Notes under the pieces: model-generated | Database searches by the model: none | Seen by the model: the letters and a program-made list of their open reading frames with translations, nothing else | What the model was told of the DNA's origin: nothing | Part shown: positions 14,327 to 46,813 of the stretch, piece after piece | How the letters are laid out: every line of letters begins with the position of its first letter | How positions within the stretch are numbered: the stretch's first letter is position 1 | Translations under genes and position numbers: made by a program | Source of the DNA: Lewinella sp. IMCC34183 | GTDB taxonomy: Bacteria > Bacteroidota > Bacteroidia > Chitinophagales > Saprospiraceae | DNA length: 64,000 nucleotides | Direction: 5' to 3' | Assembly: GCF_003390915.1 (NCBI RefSeq) | Contig: NZ_QMEM01000003.1 | Span: 186,001 to 250,000 of the forward strand

Positions 14327-15657
14327 TCGCGATCCGCCATCCGCGCCATCAGGGCGGCGCCGTAGGCGCTGGCCTGGGGGGTATGCGCGATCTCCACGTG
14401 GCGATCGGCGCGGGCCGCCAGCAGCTCTACCCAGCCGCGCGAGCGGGTGAACCCCCCACTGGCGTAGATGACCTCCGACCGGCAAGTGGCCTGCTCTACC
14501 TGCTTGAGGATCTCGATAATGTTGTCGGTCACGCCCAACAGTACGGCGCGGGCCAGGTCGGTGGGGGTATGGTCGCCGCGAAGTCCCTCGAAGGCGGCGG
14601 TCGCCAGGGCGTCCCAGATGGGGGCCCGCTCGCCGTTCAGGAAGGGCCGGAAGCGTAAGCTCGAATCGGGGGCCGCGGCGGCGGCCTCGATCATGGTACC
14701 GATGTCGTCGAAGTGGCCGCGGAGCAGCTCGTAGGTCCACTCCAGTACCTTGCCGCCGTTGTTGGTGGCCCCACCCAGTACGAAGTAATCGTCGTAGAGG
14801 AGGTAGTTGAACAGCTGCACGCCGCCCGTATTGCTGTCGCCCCGGTGGGTAGCGCGTACCGCTCCGCTGGTCCCGATGGTTAGTGACACCTTGCCCGGTT
14901 CGAGCAGCCCGCTGCCGAGGTTGGCCAGGCAGCCGTCGGAGCCGCCGATACAGAGAGGCAGGTCGCGGGCACCGAGGCGCTCCGCTACCTCCGGACGCCA
15001 GTGCAGGCGGCGGCGGGCCGGTACCAGTCCGGGGAGGCGGAGGGGGAGCCGCTGGCCGTCGCCGGCCAGGCGGAGGGCTTCCTCGTCCCAGTCCCGTCGC
15101 CGGAGATCGAGCAGGCCGGTGGCACTGGCCAGTTGTTCGTCGAGCAGCGGGCCGTCGGTGGTCCAGCGGTCGACCAGGTACGACTTGATATCCGAGAGGT
15201 AGGCAGCCTGCGCGATCCGGTCGGGGTGAAAGCGCGAGAGCCAGCGCAGCTTGACCAGGGGCGACATCGGATGTACGGGGGTACCCGTGCGGCGCAGCAG
15301 GGCCTGCCGCTGGTCCGTATCGAACTCCCGCATCACGGCCTGGGCCCGGGTATCGGCCCAGGTGATGGCCGGCCCGGTGGGGCGGCGGTCGGCGTCGAGC
15401 AGCAGTACGCCGTGCATGGGGCAGCTAATACCCAGGCCGGCAGGCGCGTCGGGTAGTTCGGCGAGCAGGTCGGTAAGGATCCGTTCGGCCACGGCCACAA
15501 TGCCGTCAGCGTCCTGCACGGCCGCCCCCGGTTCCGGCTGCAACAGCTCGTAGCCGCCGCTGCGCTCCGCCACGAGGCGGCCGTCTTCGGCGAAGGCACA
15601 TACTTTGGCAGAGGTCGTCCCCAGATCGAGTCCGAGGTATAAAGGGGCAGCGGGCAT
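14323..15657 (-). CDS. FGGY-family carbohydrate kinase, probably gluconokinase
   Basis: A 444-residue FGGY sugar kinase. The N-terminal phosphate-binding motif is LGLDLGTTSAKV; SCPMHGVLLLD and VHPMSPLVKLRWL are substrate-side motifs that resemble gluconokinases more than glycerol kinases; LTIGTSGAVR and GGATNNGGKVLEW belong to the C-terminal domain with the catalytic Asp in GGSDGCLANLG. It phosphorylates a sugar or sugar acid with ATP. The ATG at 15657 begins three bases after a TACCTTTGG promoter element. Gluconate as substrate is inference. Confidence 0.85.
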   Translation of the reverse strand: MPAAPLYLGLDLGTTSAKVCAFAEDGRLVAERSGGYELLQPEPGAAVQDADGIVAVAERILTDLLAELPDAPAGLGISCPMHGVLLLDADRRPTGPAITWADTRAQAVMREFDTDQRQALLRRTGTPVHPMSPLVKLRWLSRFHPDRIAQAAYLSDIKSYLVDRWTTDGPLLDEQLASATGLLDLRRRDWDEEALRLAGDGQRLPLRLPGLVPARRRLHWRPEVAERLGARDLPLCIGGSDGCLANLGSGLLEPGKVSLTIGTSGAVRATHRGDSNTGGVQLFNYLLYDDYFVLGGATNNGGKVLEWTYELLRGHFDDIGTMIEAAAAAPDSSLRFRPFLNGERAPIWDALATAAFEGLRGDHTPTDLARAVLLGVTDNIIEILKQVEQATCRSEVIYASGGFTRSRGWVELLAARADRHVEIAHTPQASAYGAALMARMADRD

Positions 15658-41919: not shown

Positions 41920-43119
41920 CTACTCTCGAATCGCCTCCAACACCACAGCAGAAGCCCCCCCGCCCCCATTACAAAGCGTAGCCAATCCATACTTCCCCCC
42001 CCGGGAATGCAGCACGTTGATCAGCGTGACGAGGATACGGGCGCCGGAGGTACCCAGCGGGTGACCGAGGGATACGCCGCCGCCGGTGACGTTCATGTTA
42101 TCGCCCTTGAGGCCGAGCTCTTTGGCGAAGGCCATGGGTACGACGGAGAAGGCTTCGTTGACTTCCAAGTAGTCCATGTCGGCGACGGTGAGGCCGGCAC
42201 GTTCGGCGGCGAGGGGGGCGGCCTTGGTGGGGGCCGTCGTGAACCACTGCGGCTCGTGGGCGGCGTCGGCGAAGGAGGCGATCTTGGCCAGGGGGGTGAG
42301 CCCCAGCTCGTCCAGGGCCTTCTGGCTCACCAACACTAGGGCCGCGGCCCCGTCGTTGATGGTGCTGGCGTTGGCGGCCGTGACGGTGCCGTCCTTGGAG
42401 AAGGCGGGGCGCAGGCTGGCCATCTTGTCAAACTTGACCTTCTTGTACTCTTCGTCCTCGCTGACGACCACGTCGTCGCCGCGGCGTTGGGGCACGCTGA
42501 CCGGTACGATCTCCCGCTTGAAGGTGCCGTCGTCGGTGGCGGCGGCGCTGCGCTTGTAGGAATTGGTGGCGTATTCGTCCTGCTCCTCGCGCGAGAAGCC
42601 GTACTTGGTGGCGGTGGCATCCGCGCAGGTACCCATGGCGTTCTGGTCGTAGGCGTCGGTGAGGCCGTCTTTAGTGAGGCCGTCGATGAGCTTGCGGTCG
42701 CCGAACTTGGCGCCCCAGCGGGCGTCGGCTACGTAGTAGGGGATGTTGGACATACTCTCCATCCCTCCGGCCACCACCACGTCGCTGTGACCGAGCATGA
42801 TCGTCTGGGCGCCAAACATCACGGCCTTCATGCCGCTGCTGCAGACCTTGTTGACCGTGGTACAGGGCACCGTATTCGGGATACCGGCCCCGAGCGCGGC
42901 TTGCCGGGCGGGGGCCTGTCCGAGGTTGGCACTGACCACGTTGCCCATGAACACTTCCTGTACCCGGTCGGCGTCAACGCCGGCGCGCTCCAGCGCACCC
43001 TTGATGGCGGCGCTGCCCAGCTGGGTAGCCGAGAGCGAGGCGAGCGCGCCTCCGAAGGAGCCGATGGGCGTACGTACGGCGGCGACGATGTAGACGGGTG
43101 GGTGGTTGTGCTTGGGCAT
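41920..43119 (-). CDS. Acetyl-CoA C-acyltransferase (thiolase)
   Basis: A 399-residue thiolase. The acyl-binding Cys is in VNKVCSSGMKA, the HxxG region is GHPLGTSGARI, the NEAF motif is present, and the second catalytic Cys is in LATLCNGGGGAS. It condenses two acetyl-CoA or cleaves 3-ketoacyl-CoA. Sequence suggests the biosynthetic/AtoB group, which is inference. It lies next to the GxxExxY element at its 3' side. The ATG at 43119 begins a typical N-terminus (PPVYIVAAVRTPIG). Confidence 0.93.
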   Translation of the reverse strand: MPKHNHPPVYIVAAVRTPIGSFGGALASLSATQLGSAAIKGALERAGVDADRVQEVFMGNVVSANLGQAPARQAALGAGIPNTVPCTTVNKVCSSGMKAVMFGAQTIMLGHSDVVVAGGMESMSNIPYYVADARWGAKFGDRKLIDGLTKDGLTDAYDQNAMGTCADATATKYGFSREEQDEYATNSYKRSAAATDDGTFKREIVPVSVPQRRGDDVVVSEDEEYKKVKFDKMASLRPAFSKDGTVTAANASTINDGAAALVLVSQKALDELGLTPLAKIASFADAAHEPQWFTTAPTKAAPLAAERAGLTVADMDYLEVNEAFSVVPMAFAKELGLKGDNMNVTGGGVSLGHPLGTSGARILVTLINVLHSRGGKYGLATLCNGGGGASAVVLEAIRE

Positions 43120-43403
43120 GATCGTGATTTTTGGCTAAGATAGTTGTCTGGCTAACAGTCAGCTGCCGGCAAAAGATTAGCCACCGACATCGGATGTCCC
43201 CCCCCCGCAGACACTCCGGCCGGCAGCGCGCAGGTGCGGTGCAGCGCCAATTACCGGTAATCAGTATGTGGAAGGGCCCGAGGCCACACTTCCCACTCCG
43301 ACGCTCCTGCGTTACCGGGACGGCCGGGCGCCCGTGGTAGCCCGATTAATTAATGATTGCGAATTACAGCACCCGCTAACTTGCTAAGGCAAATCATACC
43401 TCC
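43120..43403. other. Divergent intergenic region between thiolase and the first barrel paralogue
   Basis: No gene seen. It holds one copy of the ACATCGGATGT palindrome (43187-43197) and one copy of the dispersed CGCAGGTGCGG motif (43229-43239), and must contain promoters for both flanking genes. CTAACTTGCTAA at 43375 resembles CTACTTGCTA inside the first palindrome array. Confidence 0.5.
43187..43197. repeat. Single ACATCGGATGT palindrome
   Basis: First of eleven copies of ACATC(C/G)GATGT in 1.7 kb. It stands alone, about 210 bases upstream of the first barrel gene. Confidence 0.7.
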
Positions 43404-43955
43404 ATGGGCAAGTCGACCTTACTTCTTGTGCTGTTTGTGCTAGGAACTGCGGGACTCTGGGCGCAGTCCTCCGCACCCGTCCGCTGGGAATACGACGTAC
43501 TGCAAGTCGGCGTCGCTCACGTCGATGTCGGAGAGCTGGGAGTCCTGCTGGGTACCGAATACCGCCGGCTGGTATCGCCAAGGGGCGCCGTGGGTCTGCG
43601 ACTTACCTCTACCCTCTACGGCGACACTCCCGAGTACCAGCTCGCGCGGGCCGGTGCGACCACGTCCCTGCTGCTCACGGGCGACCGGTACCTCCGCGCA
43701 ACCAACGGATACGGTCTCTTTGCCGGCGGTGGACTGGGCGTGGCCCGGGGTTCGCACCTCAGACTGACCTCTGGCGGTGGCAAGGGTATCGGTCTGGCCT
43801 CGGATGGCCGCATGGGTGCCGTCGGGGAGTTGCACGTAGGCTACCGGTTTCGCTACCTGCGACTGACGATGGGCTACCTGCGCGCCCTACCGGCCGCTGT
43901 CCCCGGCTGCTGGTCGCTGACCGTGGCGCCCACCCTCGGCAACGGGCGGCGGTAG
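43404..43955 (+). CDS. Outer-membrane barrel-like protein, paralogue 1
   Basis: A 183-residue exported protein with signal peptide STLLLVLFVLGTAGLWAQ. The mature part is strand-rich: WEYDVLQVGVAHVDVGELGVLLGTEYRR, GLRLTSTLYGD, TTSLLLTGDRYL, GYGLFAGGGLGVARG. It aligns along its length with the next gene (GTEYRRL/GTEVRFN, LLLTGDRYLRATNGYGLFAGGGLGV / TLITGDYYLKRIGGFRPFAGVGIGM), so the two are tandem paralogues. No enzymatic motif. Seven bases after its stop a palindrome array begins. Confidence 0.72.
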   Translation: MGKSTLLLVLFVLGTAGLWAQSSAPVRWEYDVLQVGVAHVDVGELGVLLGTEYRRLVSPRGAVGLRLTSTLYGDTPEYQLARAGATTSLLLTGDRYLRATNGYGLFAGGGLGVARGSHLRLTSGGGKGIGLASDGRMGAVGELHVGYRFRYLRLTMGYLRALPAAVPGCWSLTVAPTLGNGRR

Positions 43956-43962
43956 GTCCTGG

Positions 43963-44106
43963 ACATCGGATGTCCCCGACATCCGATGTGGGGCTTAAAA
44001 AATCGCCAGACAATTCAATCACTTGATTATCAGCTACTTGCTATTTTAGACATCCGATGTCCTCCAGCGTCAGTCTCCCACATCGGATGTGCACCACATC
44101 CGATGT
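43963..44106. repeat. Five-site ACATC(C/G)GATGT array, copy 1
   Basis: Five 11-base palindromes start at 43963, 43979, 44050, 44080 and 44096. The first two and last two are spaced exactly 16 bases start to start. The first pair and last pair are head-to-head (…CGG… then …CCG…), able to form 11-base hairpins. The array begins 7 bases after the stop of paralogue 1 and ends 36 bases before the start of paralogue 2. The same geometry recurs at 44718-44863. Confidence 0.85.
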
Positions 44107-44141
44107 CGGGAGCGTTTCTACGTGCAAATCACCACCTGCCC

Positions 44142-44711
44142 ATGAATTTCAAGCTATTCCTCGCCGCCATCCTGCTTGCGACCTCCACGCTCCTGACCGC
44201 CCAGTCCAATAACTATCGCCACTTGGAGTGGGACCTCCTGCGCCTCGGCTACACCGCCCCCAGCAGCGAGTTCTACAACGGCGGCGCTGCCATGGGCACG
44301 GAGGTACGCTTTAACGCCACGGATAACCTCTCGGCGGGTATCCGGCTCGAACTGGCCTTCTATACCTCCGACCTCGACGCCGACGTGATCGACATCGGTG
44401 CCGCCAGCAGCACGCTCATTACCGGCGATTACTACCTGAAGCGCATCGGTGGGTTTCGGCCCTTTGCGGGTGTCGGTATTGGAATGTTTACCGGGGCGAG
44501 CGCCACGGTACGCGATTTAGACAACCTGGACCCCGAGGATTTCAGCGGCGGCCGGGGTCTTGGACTTACCCCGCGCCTCGGCCTGGAGCTGGGCCACTTC
44601 CGCGTCAGCGCGGAGTACAATTACACCTTCAGCAACCGGGTGTCCAACTACTTCAGCATCATGGTGGCCCCCACCCTCTTCGGCGGACCGAAGGACGACA
44701 AGCAGCATTAG
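44142..44711 (+). CDS. Outer-membrane barrel-like protein, paralogue 2
   Basis: A 189-residue exported protein with signal peptide FKLFLAAILLATSTLLTAQ and strand-rich mature sequence (LEWDLLRLGYTAP, AAMGTEVRFNATDNLSAGIRLEL, SSTLITGDYYLKRIGGFRPFAGVGIGMFTG, HFRVSAEYNYTFSNRVSNYFSIMVAPTLFGG). It is paralogous to the preceding gene. The ATG at 44142 begins the signal peptide; the frame is open upstream through the palindrome array but that part is not coding-like. A second palindrome array begins six bases after the stop. Confidence 0.75.
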   Translation: MNFKLFLAAILLATSTLLTAQSNNYRHLEWDLLRLGYTAPSSEFYNGGAAMGTEVRFNATDNLSAGIRLELAFYTSDLDADVIDIGAASSTLITGDYYLKRIGGFRPFAGVGIGMFTGASATVRDLDNLDPEDFSGGRGLGLTPRLGLELGHFRVSAEYNYTFSNRVSNYFSIMVAPTLFGGPKDDKQH

Positions 44712-44717
44712 CTTCCG

Positions 44718-44863
44718 ACATCGGATGTGGATCACATCCGATGTGGGGGGCTGCTAACGTAAAATAATCGATAGTTCATTCATTATCAGATCCTTGTCAA
44801 TTTGCACATCCGATGTGCCCAAAGCGTCAAGCAACAACATCCGATGTGCAGCACATCCGATGT
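44718..44863. repeat. Five-site ACATC(C/G)GATGT array, copy 2
   Basis: Palindromes start at 44718, 44734, 44806, 44837 and 44853, giving offsets 0, 16, 88, 119, 135 against 0, 16, 87, 117, 133 in copy 1. The spacer between sites two and three is also related (ATTATCAG…CTTG in both). The array fills the whole space between the stop of paralogue 2 and the stop of the convergent ubiD gene, so it is not upstream of any annotated gene. Confidence 0.85.
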
Positions 44864-44869
44864 CGCGGG

Positions 44870-46687
44870 TCAGTACGTCAGCCCCATCCGCTCCATCAGC
44901 GCATCCACCCGGCGGGTGACGGCGTCGTCGGTGACCAGGCCGGGCGCGTGCCACGGCTTGATGCGGGCGTCGATCACCACCGGCCCGCGGCAGCCCCAGT
45001 GCTTGTGCTCGGTGAAGGCGTCGATGCCGTGGAGGTCGTGACTGGGATTGGACCGGGTGAACGCGGCCCACACGAAGTTGCTGAAGTCAGCGGCGAGGAA
45101 GGCACTGTCGTCGCAAACCACGATAAGTGGCGTCTTTTCCAGTAGCCCCGCACCTGCGTTCGCGCCCAGGAAGGGTTGGAGGGAGGCGTAGCCGTCTTCT
45201 TTAGTGAAGGTCGGTCCCTGGACCGCCAGGATGCCCGGGGCCACCAGCTGCGGCGCGCCATAGCCCTCCGGCAGGGACAGGGCATCGGGTACCGTGGCGG
45301 AGAGCGTACGGCGCGCTTCCCCCCGGCAGGCCCAGATGAGCTTGGAGCCCGCGTTCCAGCCGGAGCCGGAGTAGTCGAGGGTATCGATGGTGGTGCGCGT
45401 CTGGAAGTGGAGATCGCGCGTGGGGTCGAAGCGCTCCAGGAGGTGGCGGAAGAAGGCCGGCTGGTCGTTGGCGTTGAGTGCGGGATCGTCTTCCTGGGCC
45501 ACGATGAGACAGTACTTGGCGAGGCTCGTCTGCCCGCTGCCCAGGATGCGGTTGGCCTGGGTGATGATCTCCTCGGGCACCTTCTCGCGGAACGGCATGT
45601 AGCGCTCCGAGCCGACGGCCAGCAGCAGGGGGTGGACGCCCGCCTCGTCGACGGCGTTGATCTGCCGGATGCCGGGAAATTCGCCGGGGGTGAGGTCCTC
45701 GACGAGCTGGTGGATGAGGTAGCCGAAACTGGAGTCCTCCGCCGGCGGCCGGCCCACGACGGTGAAGTGCCAGAGGGGGTCCTTGCGGTGCCAGACGGTC
45801 TCGACGTCCATGACCGGGAAGTCGTGCTGCAGCGAGTAGTAGCCCAGGTGGTCGCCGAAGGGCCCTTCGGGCTTCTTCTCGCCCTTGCGGATCGTGCCGG
45901 TGATCACGAAATCGGCGTCGGCGCTGAGGAGCCAGTCGCGGTCCCAGGCGTAGCCGAAGCGGCGCCCGGCCAGCATACCGGCGAAGGTCATCTCGCTCAG
46001 CCCCTCGGGCAGCGGCATGATGGCGCTGAAGGCGTGGCTCGGCGGGCCGCCGATGAAGACCGAGGCCCGAAAGGGCGCGTCGGTGCGGTTGTACTCGGTG
46101 TGGTGGACGCCGATGCCGCGGTGCAGCTGGTAGTGGAGGCCGATCTCCTCGTTGGTCACGTAGTCGTTGCCGGTGAGCTGTATGCGGTACATGCCGAGGT
46201 TGGTGTCCATGGGCTTGCGGCTGCCGGGCGGCAGGGTGCAGACCTGCGGCAGGGTGACGAAGGCGCCGCCGTCCATGGGCCAGGACTTCACCAGCGGCAG
46301 CTGGTCGATGGTCGTCTGGGCGTACTTGACGGCGGGGCGCAGGTGCCGGCGGGGCAGGGCGGAGAGGGCCGTAAACGGGCTTTTGGCGTAGCGCAGCGGG
46401 TTCTTGGCGAAGTTGGCGGGGTCGGCCTTGAGTTCCACGACCTTCTTCACATTTGGCAGCGTCTTGCGGAAGAGAAAGTCGGTCCGCGCGTAGGTGCCGT
46501 ATAGGTTGGATACCGCCTGGAAGGGGCTCCCCTTCACCCGTTCGTAGAGGATGGCCGGTCCGCGGGCGGCGAAGACGCGGCGGTGGATCTCGGCCATCTC
46601 CAGGTCGGGATCGACTTCTTCGGTAATGCGGAGGAGTTGGCCGGTGCGTTCGAGGTCGGCGACGGCGGCGCGGAGGGAAGCGTGCAT
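44870..46687 (-). CDS. UbiD family decarboxylase
   Basis: A 605-residue UbiD-type decarboxylase, which uses prenylated FMN to (de)carboxylate aromatic or unsaturated acids. Family features are NLGMYRIQLTG, GVHHTEYNR, DPLWHFTVVGRPPAEDS and FGDHLGYYS. It is about 100 residues longer than E. coli UbiD, as is usual for Bacteroidota members, and may serve in menaquinone synthesis. No UbiX flavin prenyltransferase is in the window. The ATG at 46687 gives the conserved LRAAVADLERTGQLLRI start. The mRNA likely has a leader of about 120 bases with a stable hairpin. Confidence 0.9.
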   Translation of the reverse strand: MHASLRAAVADLERTGQLLRITEEVDPDLEMAEIHRRVFAARGPAILYERVKGSPFQAVSNLYGTYARTDFLFRKTLPNVKKVVELKADPANFAKNPLRYAKSPFTALSALPRRHLRPAVKYAQTTIDQLPLVKSWPMDGGAFVTLPQVCTLPPGSRKPMDTNLGMYRIQLTGNDYVTNEEIGLHYQLHRGIGVHHTEYNRTDAPFRASVFIGGPPSHAFSAIMPLPEGLSEMTFAGMLAGRRFGYAWDRDWLLSADADFVITGTIRKGEKKPEGPFGDHLGYYSLQHDFPVMDVETVWHRKDPLWHFTVVGRPPAEDSSFGYLIHQLVEDLTPGEFPGIRQINAVDEAGVHPLLLAVGSERYMPFREKVPEEIITQANRILGSGQTSLAKYCLIVAQEDDPALNANDQPAFFRHLLERFDPTRDLHFQTRTTIDTLDYSGSGWNAGSKLIWACRGEARRTLSATVPDALSLPEGYGAPQLVAPGILAVQGPTFTKEDGYASLQPFLGANAGAGLLEKTPLIVVCDDSAFLAADFSNFVWAAFTRSNPSHDLHGIDAFTEHKHWGCRGPVVIDARIKPWHAPGLVTDDAVTRRVDALMERMGLTY

Positions 46688-46733
46688 GCAGGGTAAATAG
46701 GCGGGCGGCGCCTTTGGTTCTGCTCCGACGTGG

Positions 46734-46761
46734 GTCGCCCCCGGCGGAGGCCGGAGGCGAC
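46734..46761 (-). promoter_or_regulatory. Leader hairpin upstream of ubiD
   Basis: On the minus strand GTCGCCTCCGGC-CTCC-GCCGGGGGCGAC forms a 12-base stem with one T-G pair and a four-base loop. It lies between the proposed promoter (46814-46845) and the ubiD ATG, about 47 bases before the start codon, and no T-run follows it. A cis-acting leader structure is possible. Confidence 0.45.
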
Positions 46762-46813
46762 GATAAAAAATCCAAATTTCACACCGTGCCGGCGGGCGGC
46801 CCACCGGCTGCCA

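Follow-up and report, generated by a model that had tools for sequence, protein, structure and literature searches.

Among the closest described systems are the REPINs and RAYTs of Pseudomonas fluorescens, for which the accessible parts of two studies describe inverted doublets in high copy number within intergenic regions, a variable spacer, the length of which is important, hairpins with compensatory changes and a RAYT gene flanked by the same repeat (PMC3116915, PMC8049555). Another is subclass 2.6 of the TnpA-Y1 transposases (matching RAYT group 5), found mostly in Bacteroidetes according to the available sections, with genes flanked by atypical secondary structures that have copies elsewhere in the genome (PMC6006769). 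Related strains can carry syntenic RAYT genes flanked by different REPs, a situation described under the terms REP orthogroups and orthoswitch; in the model, as given in the accessible portion of the work, the original REPs remain and decay and novel variants might partially replace them (PMC3686654). Finally, TIRYTs and TIRtrons are, in the excerpted text, RAYT-like genes enclosed by inverted ends, of which further copies are scattered as repeats (PMC3733652). The role of RAYTs for their hosts and the persistence of REPs are open questions in the field. Within open-licence papers we found none on palindromic repeats of Lewinella associated with a transposase, and among the open-licence matches listed for in-place motif switching, concerted evolution and conserved locations of REPINs and RAYTs no title dealt with in-place switching.

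Here we have analysed a stretch of 64 kb (the window) from Lewinella sp. IMCC34183, whose genome (5.10 Mb in 57 contigs) is designated G000. The palindromes in it are, with a probability of about 0.87, the ends of miniature elements of the REP/REPIN type belonging to a Bacteroidota RAYT (an HUH Y1 enzyme), and two arrays, A and B, would be non-autonomous copies inserted in this lineage.

Two arrays of a palindrome in the window

The pattern ACATCSGATGT has 12 exact matches in the window, the eleven of an earlier, sequence-only reading plus an isolated copy at 15264..15274 (plus strand), which lies in a kinase gene according to that reading, is outside any element and is probably due to chance. 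Shuffled windows contained 0.02 copies on average, with none of 100 reaching 12, and a search of the window allowing one mismatch returned no further copies. Arrays A (43963-44106) and B (44718-44863) share a common plan (hairpin, core, single unit, pair), and the offsets previously given for their sites, 0/16/87/117/133 and 0/16/88/119/135, were reproduced on recount.

Array A, on the plus strand, begins with the hairpin ACATCGGATGT-CCCCG-ACATCCGATGT (43963..43989), followed by a non-conserved core (43990..44049), in which TGATTATCAG is common to two other cores of G000, a single unit (44050..44060) and a second hairpin, ACATCGGATGT-GCACC-ACATCCGATGT (44080..44106), whose flanks CTCCC and GGGAG could extend the stem beyond one unpaired base. 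Array B, on the same strand, comprises the hairpin ACATCGGATGT-GGATC-ACATCCGATGT (44718..44744), a non-conserved core (44745..44805), a single unit (44806..44816) and a second pair in which both units are C-centred, with one mismatch in the stem (44837..44863). Arrays A and B both open with a G-centred 11-mer followed by a C-centred one, a feature absent from the first reading; the two are exact reverse complements and could pair into a stem of 11 bp closed by a loop of 5 bases. A solitary unit, ACATCGGATGT at 43187..43197 (plus strand), precedes the thiolase start by 67 bases, has no partner unit at 16 or 33 bases and sits in surroundings that fold no better than shuffles (z 0.91); we read it as a relic.

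The neighbours of the elements are barrel gene 1 (43404..43955, plus strand, 183 aa), barrel gene 2 (44142..44711, plus strand, 189 aa), which is 29% identical to the first, neither with a Pfam hit, and a UbiD-family decarboxylase gene (44870..46804, minus strand). As had been stated, the arrays start 6-7 bases past the barrel stops (7 from the end of barrel 1 at 43955 to 43963, and 6 from the end of barrel 2 at 44711 to 44718), and the end of the UbiD gene at 44870 is 6 bases past the end of array B at 44863. The tie between palindrome and barrel genes proved to be incidental, with 221 copies in the genome and the same modules in dozens of other intergenic regions; with so many copies, we have rejected a role as operator or regulon of the barrel genes. 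UbiD homologues were present in all 14 genus genomes searched (our own included), and in the nine relatives that were read, out of the 13 others with UbiD, the 700 bases after the gene contained no match to AC[AG]TCSGA[CT]GT. Homologues of barrel 2 lie near UbiD in G001 (62%) and G007 (53%), and CATCNGATG is absent from the intergenic stretches at barrel 2 and UbiD examined in both. The array is thus missing beside the barrel gene in these two relatives with a barrel-2 homologue, and the motif is common genome-wide (though clustered and intergenic), the two outcomes that the sequence-only reading had named as speaking against it. Among the relatives compared, arrays A and B are found in this lineage only.

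A dispersed repeat family and its probable transposase

The genome-wide count that had been proposed as a check gave 221 copies of ACATCSGATGT in G000, with none of the reversed control pattern. We searched 60 genomes in all, G000 among them, 21 of the genus (G000-G020) and 39 of other genera. Three genus relatives also had many copies (120 in G017, 74 in G007 and 40 in G001); the other 17 genus genomes had 0-5, those of other genera 0-4, and the reversed controls 0-11 across the whole set. The exact 16-spaced hairpin, searched in one genome per GTDB species, was found in a single record, Neolewinella marina, in a search that may have omitted records of the own genome or near-identical ones. 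A longer palindrome of G005, CTTATCACCCTACATCGGATGTAGGGTGATAAG, contains the 11-mer (L203, G005:C68:142000-145000), and the best RAYT match in that genome is 37% identical.

Pairs and gene context were analysed in G000 over stretches holding 211 of the 221 copies, from which 11 copies on contig C44 were excluded, being 525 bases apart within a long open frame. This frame (L033, G000:C44:171000-180500) has 3166 codons, and its 525-base tandem repeat carries the 11-mer in 11 repeats. The 16-base pairing does recur elsewhere, as a second proposed check had asked: the other 200 copies form 76 neighbouring pairs at this spacing (54 G-C, 12 C-C, 6 G-G and 4 C-G). Outside the genes called by a home-made gene caller lie 184 of 201 sites (one of them a one-letter variant). 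Leaving aside 17 clusters that fell within called genes or at edges, 62 could be classified by context, 35 between tandem genes, 16 between divergent and 11 between convergent ones. A 3' UTR structure, one of the three options originally put forward, is weak because the 16 divergent clusters have no neighbouring 3' end; the option of a repeat element is the one that holds, and that of a DNA-binding array is less supported than a cognate RAYT acting on the hairpins, which is the best-supported, if putative, binder of the sites.

The structure of the pairs is visible in their flanks. In the 54 G-C hairpins of G000 the flanking bases are complementary in 76, 80, 72, 67 and 54% of cases at positions 1-5, versus 47, 50, 48, 43 and 27% when partners are shuffled, with none of 2000 shuffles reaching the observed value at any of these positions; the covariation fades beyond position 5. 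The loop has G-C or C-G as its first and last bases in 44 of the 54. Around 199 single units of G000 no such covariation was seen (50 vs 46% at position 1), and a cruciform at the level of the unit was rejected as a conserved structure for this reason. The pairs are 33 bases apart in G017, in G001 and in part of G007, and there the covariation is weak or the signal reflects mostly differences between genomes. Many ends in these three genomes read G,G...C,C, i.e., they are inverted, at a distance of about 100-150 bases. The cores share no conserved sequence, the 8- to 10-mers being common to at most 4 of 30 cores of G000, at or barely above shuffles. Neither is there a constant GTAG or GGAG tetranucleotide at the foot of the hairpin, where the flanks of G000 vary with compensation, and the missing constant 5' tag counts against the REP/REPIN-RAYT reading. 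Many outer units of G001, albeit not all, are preceded by TAR.

A RAYT gene flanked by the ACATCSGATGT repeat of its own genome is present in G000, G001, G017 and G007. These are precisely the high-copy genomes (4/4 vs 0/17, Fisher p=0.00017, with classes defined after looking). In each of G017, G001 and G007 a single element encloses a gene of about 190 codons, and the RAYT of G000, outside the window at G000:C55:80697-81200, is located amid ACATCSGATGT hairpins. The gene of G007 has one in-frame TAG (L042, G007:C2:875000-880000), and the 74 copies of this genome despite the internal stop count against the involvement of the RAYT. With the RAYT of G001 as query against 36 genomes, the matches were 65% identical in G007, 64% in G017, 62% in G013, 56% in G000 and 49% in G020, and the next one by E-value, in G021 (another genus), was 38% identical (3.9e-29).

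The HUH (NHFH) and the YVH.N tyrosine motifs are invariant in the four RAYTs aligned. The proteins match the NCBIfam model NF047646 (REP-associated tyrosine transposase) with E 1e-11 in G000, 3.5e-15 in G001, 9.2e-11 in G017 and 3e-12 in G013, all scoring below the 80-bit cut-off, and they match Pfam Y1_Tnp weakly and also below cut-off; we have counted both shortfalls against the RAYT assignment. The sole hit of a PDB sequence search up to E 1 was TnpA-REP (4er8, E 0.0068). A structural model of the G000 protein (pLDDT 68, moderate; pTM 0.72) gave fold hits to ISDra2 (E 2.9e-4), 4er8 (4.8e-4) and IS608 (from 1.3e-3; overall to 2e-3), with TM-scores of 0.41-0.46 by query length, so that in its predicted fold it resembles the IS200/IS605 and TnpA-REP enzymes.

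The RAYT gene does not occupy the same site throughout. The TonB-receptor/lactonase locus that holds it in four relatives (G001, G007, G017 and G013) has hairpins without a RAYT in G000, and the site orthologous to that of the G000 gene has in G001 an element without a RAYT (L139, G000:C50:178000-184300; L159, G000:C55:78500-84000; L041, G001). Two histories would explain this, a relocation of the gene from one element site to another or the successive loss of two ancestral genes. Further RAYTs accompany other repeats. Among those of G000, two are found amid families of their own, of the TCGGGCCGGAGGCCCTC type (L017, G000:C34:1242819-1246100) and the CGCTGCCGGGAGGCAGCG type (L018, G000:C50:476264-479530), and more distant ones in G016 (L105) and G014 (L089) have on their flanks long hairpins whose core is CGTCSGACG, near the motif of G013 described below. 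The RAYT of G020 is flanked by a related longer hairpin with CATCRGATG, of which the exact 17-mer occurs 9 times in G020, twice in G002, once in G005 and in none of six others.

Taken as a mechanism, two neighbouring 11-mers would pair with each other when the DNA is single-stranded, giving one long hairpin, and an element would consist of a hairpin, a core of free sequence and another hairpin. The RAYT would bind and nick these hairpins, and might through them copy or rewrite the ends of elements already in place, with the copies following its specificity.

A different motif at sites shared between two genomes

In G013 the RAYT gene, at the TonB-receptor/lactonase locus, is flanked by ACGTCSGACGT, which differs by two symmetric substitutions and remains palindromic. 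This motif, predicted from the flank of a single gene, occurs 96 times in G013, against 3 for the control, and 0-2 times in each of the 20 other genomes of a search whose set of 21 excluded G014-G020 and hence G017. The 102 units examined in G017 are 100 ACATCSGATGT and 2 half-forms, with no ACGTCSGACGT. Since G000, G001, G007 and G017 all have ACATC, the motif of G013 is, by parsimony, the derived one.

We compared the positions of clusters by blastn on both flanks, skipping the 20 bases beside each cluster. For G013 we used 18 clusters, the first 17 listed among the 96-copy matches plus the RAYT locus. Sixteen of them have a counterpart in G017 by both flanks; the remaining two are single sites. 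Among 36 clusters of G017, at least 10 match G000, at least 4 match G001 and at least 5 match G007; the sets from G013, G001 and G007 are incomplete, making the sharing counts lower bounds. In total there are 28 groups of sites common to several genomes, 15 shared by two, 8 by three, 4 by four and 1 by five. A common site of G020 and G017 was rejected, the match being one-sided and no element being present at the G020 SAHH locus in the stretch examined.

At the 16 sites common to G013 and G017, the tally of units (those with other changes uncounted) gives 51 ACGTCSGACGT and 6 half-switched out of 57 in G013, with no ACATCSGATGT, and 49 ACATCSGATGT out of 49 in G017. Over all the G013 loci examined no exact ACATCSGATGT is left, and half-switched units amount to 6/59, compared to 2/102 in G017 and 1/201 in G000. 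The spans of the elements agree within 1 base in 7 of 15 comparable pairs (one incomplete pair dropped), versus 1.2 expected by permutation (0/5000). At six pairs core identity is 0.20-0.50, while 23 unrelated pairs of the same length have a mean of 0.344 and a maximum of 0.494; in five of the six the core lengths differ by no more than 1 base.

Intergenic gaps were compared as well, with the caveat that loci were chosen for having elements, which biases the discordant cells low. From G013 to G017, 13 gaps have an element in both, 9 in neither and none is discordant; from G017 to G000 the counts are 8, 6 and 2, and from G000 to G017 they are 8, 4 and 3 (p 0.089). One site was traced across the genus. 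An element just upstream of SAHH is present in G017 and G013 and absent from the other 18 genus genomes with the SAHH locus (about 330 bases; no hit in G003; identity of the far-side gene assumed), a pattern consistent with insertion before G013 and G017 diverged and a change of motif in G013 thereafter.

The different motif at common sites is an observation, from which we infer rewriting in place and its mode. Possibly, at somewhat less than even odds, the RAYT rewrites the hairpin ends in place: sites would be stable and inherited, and a shift in specificity would convert the dispersed copies where they stand, preserving the length of the core and not its sequence. Point mutations selected for a match to the RAYT could have the same outcome. 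If rewriting in place were true, REP families would persist as fixed landmarks in the genome, recognised by a domesticated transposase, and not as wandering copies.

Other explanations and relation to known systems

The sharing of sites between species would also be expected if the palindromes were double-stranded DNA sites of a dimeric host protein (a nucleoid organiser or regulator) whose specificity drifted in G013, the sites following by point mutation. The symmetric compensatory change with half-switched units (6/57 in G013) agrees with this, as do the inner gaps, near 88, 98, 109, 119, 130 and 142 and thus about 11 bases apart (R 0.62, n 51, 0/2000 jittered sets; 1/3000 for G017 alone and 43/3000 for G001 alone). 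However, the periodicity is not significant with each value taken once (1736/3000 in G017, 296/3000 in G001) and a period of 10.5 is absent in G000; we do not claim helical phasing of the gaps, as sites common by descent and repeated values contribute to the signal. Moreover, high copy number tallies with the motif-flanked RAYTs, and flanks covary at the level of the pair and not around single units, all of which makes such a protein unlikely.

The site coincidence might otherwise reflect a strongly site-specific insertion, each species being colonised independently with its own motif. In five genomes the elements do lie near stop codons, at median distances of 12-27 bases, but independent arrivals would hardly account for the agreement of spans within 1 base, for the excess of half-switched units in G013 over G017 and G000, or for the finding that all nine site-free gaps of G013 with a counterpart in G017 are site-free there too (with the bias of locus choice noted above), and we consider this improbable. 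Proximity to stop codons, with medians of 12 bases over 57 distances in G000 and 13 over 33 in G017 and start codons farther away (54 and 88, respectively), could likewise be taken to indicate bidirectional terminators or stabilisers of mRNA 3' ends. The RNA of arrays A and B, folded as had been advised, is also better than shuffles (z -4.2 and -4.0). Against such a function, the clusters of G000 show no preference for convergent genes (35 tandem, 16 divergent and 11 convergent, versus 94, 25 and 25 in site-free gene pairs), and an Rfam search of 42000-46000 gave no match up to E 1, by which a known RNA family is rejected; we regard a terminator or stabiliser function as very improbable.

Read as ends of RAYT-associated elements, the arrays themselves would be ordinary mobile DNA, REPIN-like elements that have doubled-palindrome ends and a Bacteroidota RAYT. 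The switched motif at common sites in a close relative is out of the ordinary, and testable. With different palindromic motifs at the same sites, G013 and G017 are a natural pair for asking if the motif is set by the transposase and if replacement occurs in place, questions that bear on transposase domestication and on the concerted evolution of dispersed repeats.

The elements are like the REPINs of P. fluorescens, as the accessible parts of those studies present them, in their high-copy intergenic inverted doublets, variable spacer, compensatory hairpin changes and the same repeat flanking the RAYT (PMC3116915, PMC8049555). Unlike in these REPINs, each end is here a doubled 11-bp palindrome (one long stem at a spacing of 16 in G000, 33-base pairs in other genomes), there is no constant GTAG tag and the RAYT belongs to a Bacteroidota clade. 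A Bacteroidetes host and flanking structures dispersed in the genome are shared with subclass 2.6, whose motifs in the available sections (NH[LIV]H, WQ and YIH[QN]NP) are matched partially, by eye, by NHFH, FQ and YVH[YFQ]N[PA] (PMC6006769). As in the TIRYTs and TIRtrons, a RAYT-like gene lies between ends that are also dispersed as repeats, although the ends are long terminal inverted repeats in the excerpt on those systems and short doubled palindromes here (PMC3733652). The orthoswitch likewise involves syntenic RAYTs flanked by different repeats in related genomes; unlike in that model, in the portion accessible, the new motif is found here at common sites, with no exact old copy in the G013 loci examined (PMC3686654).
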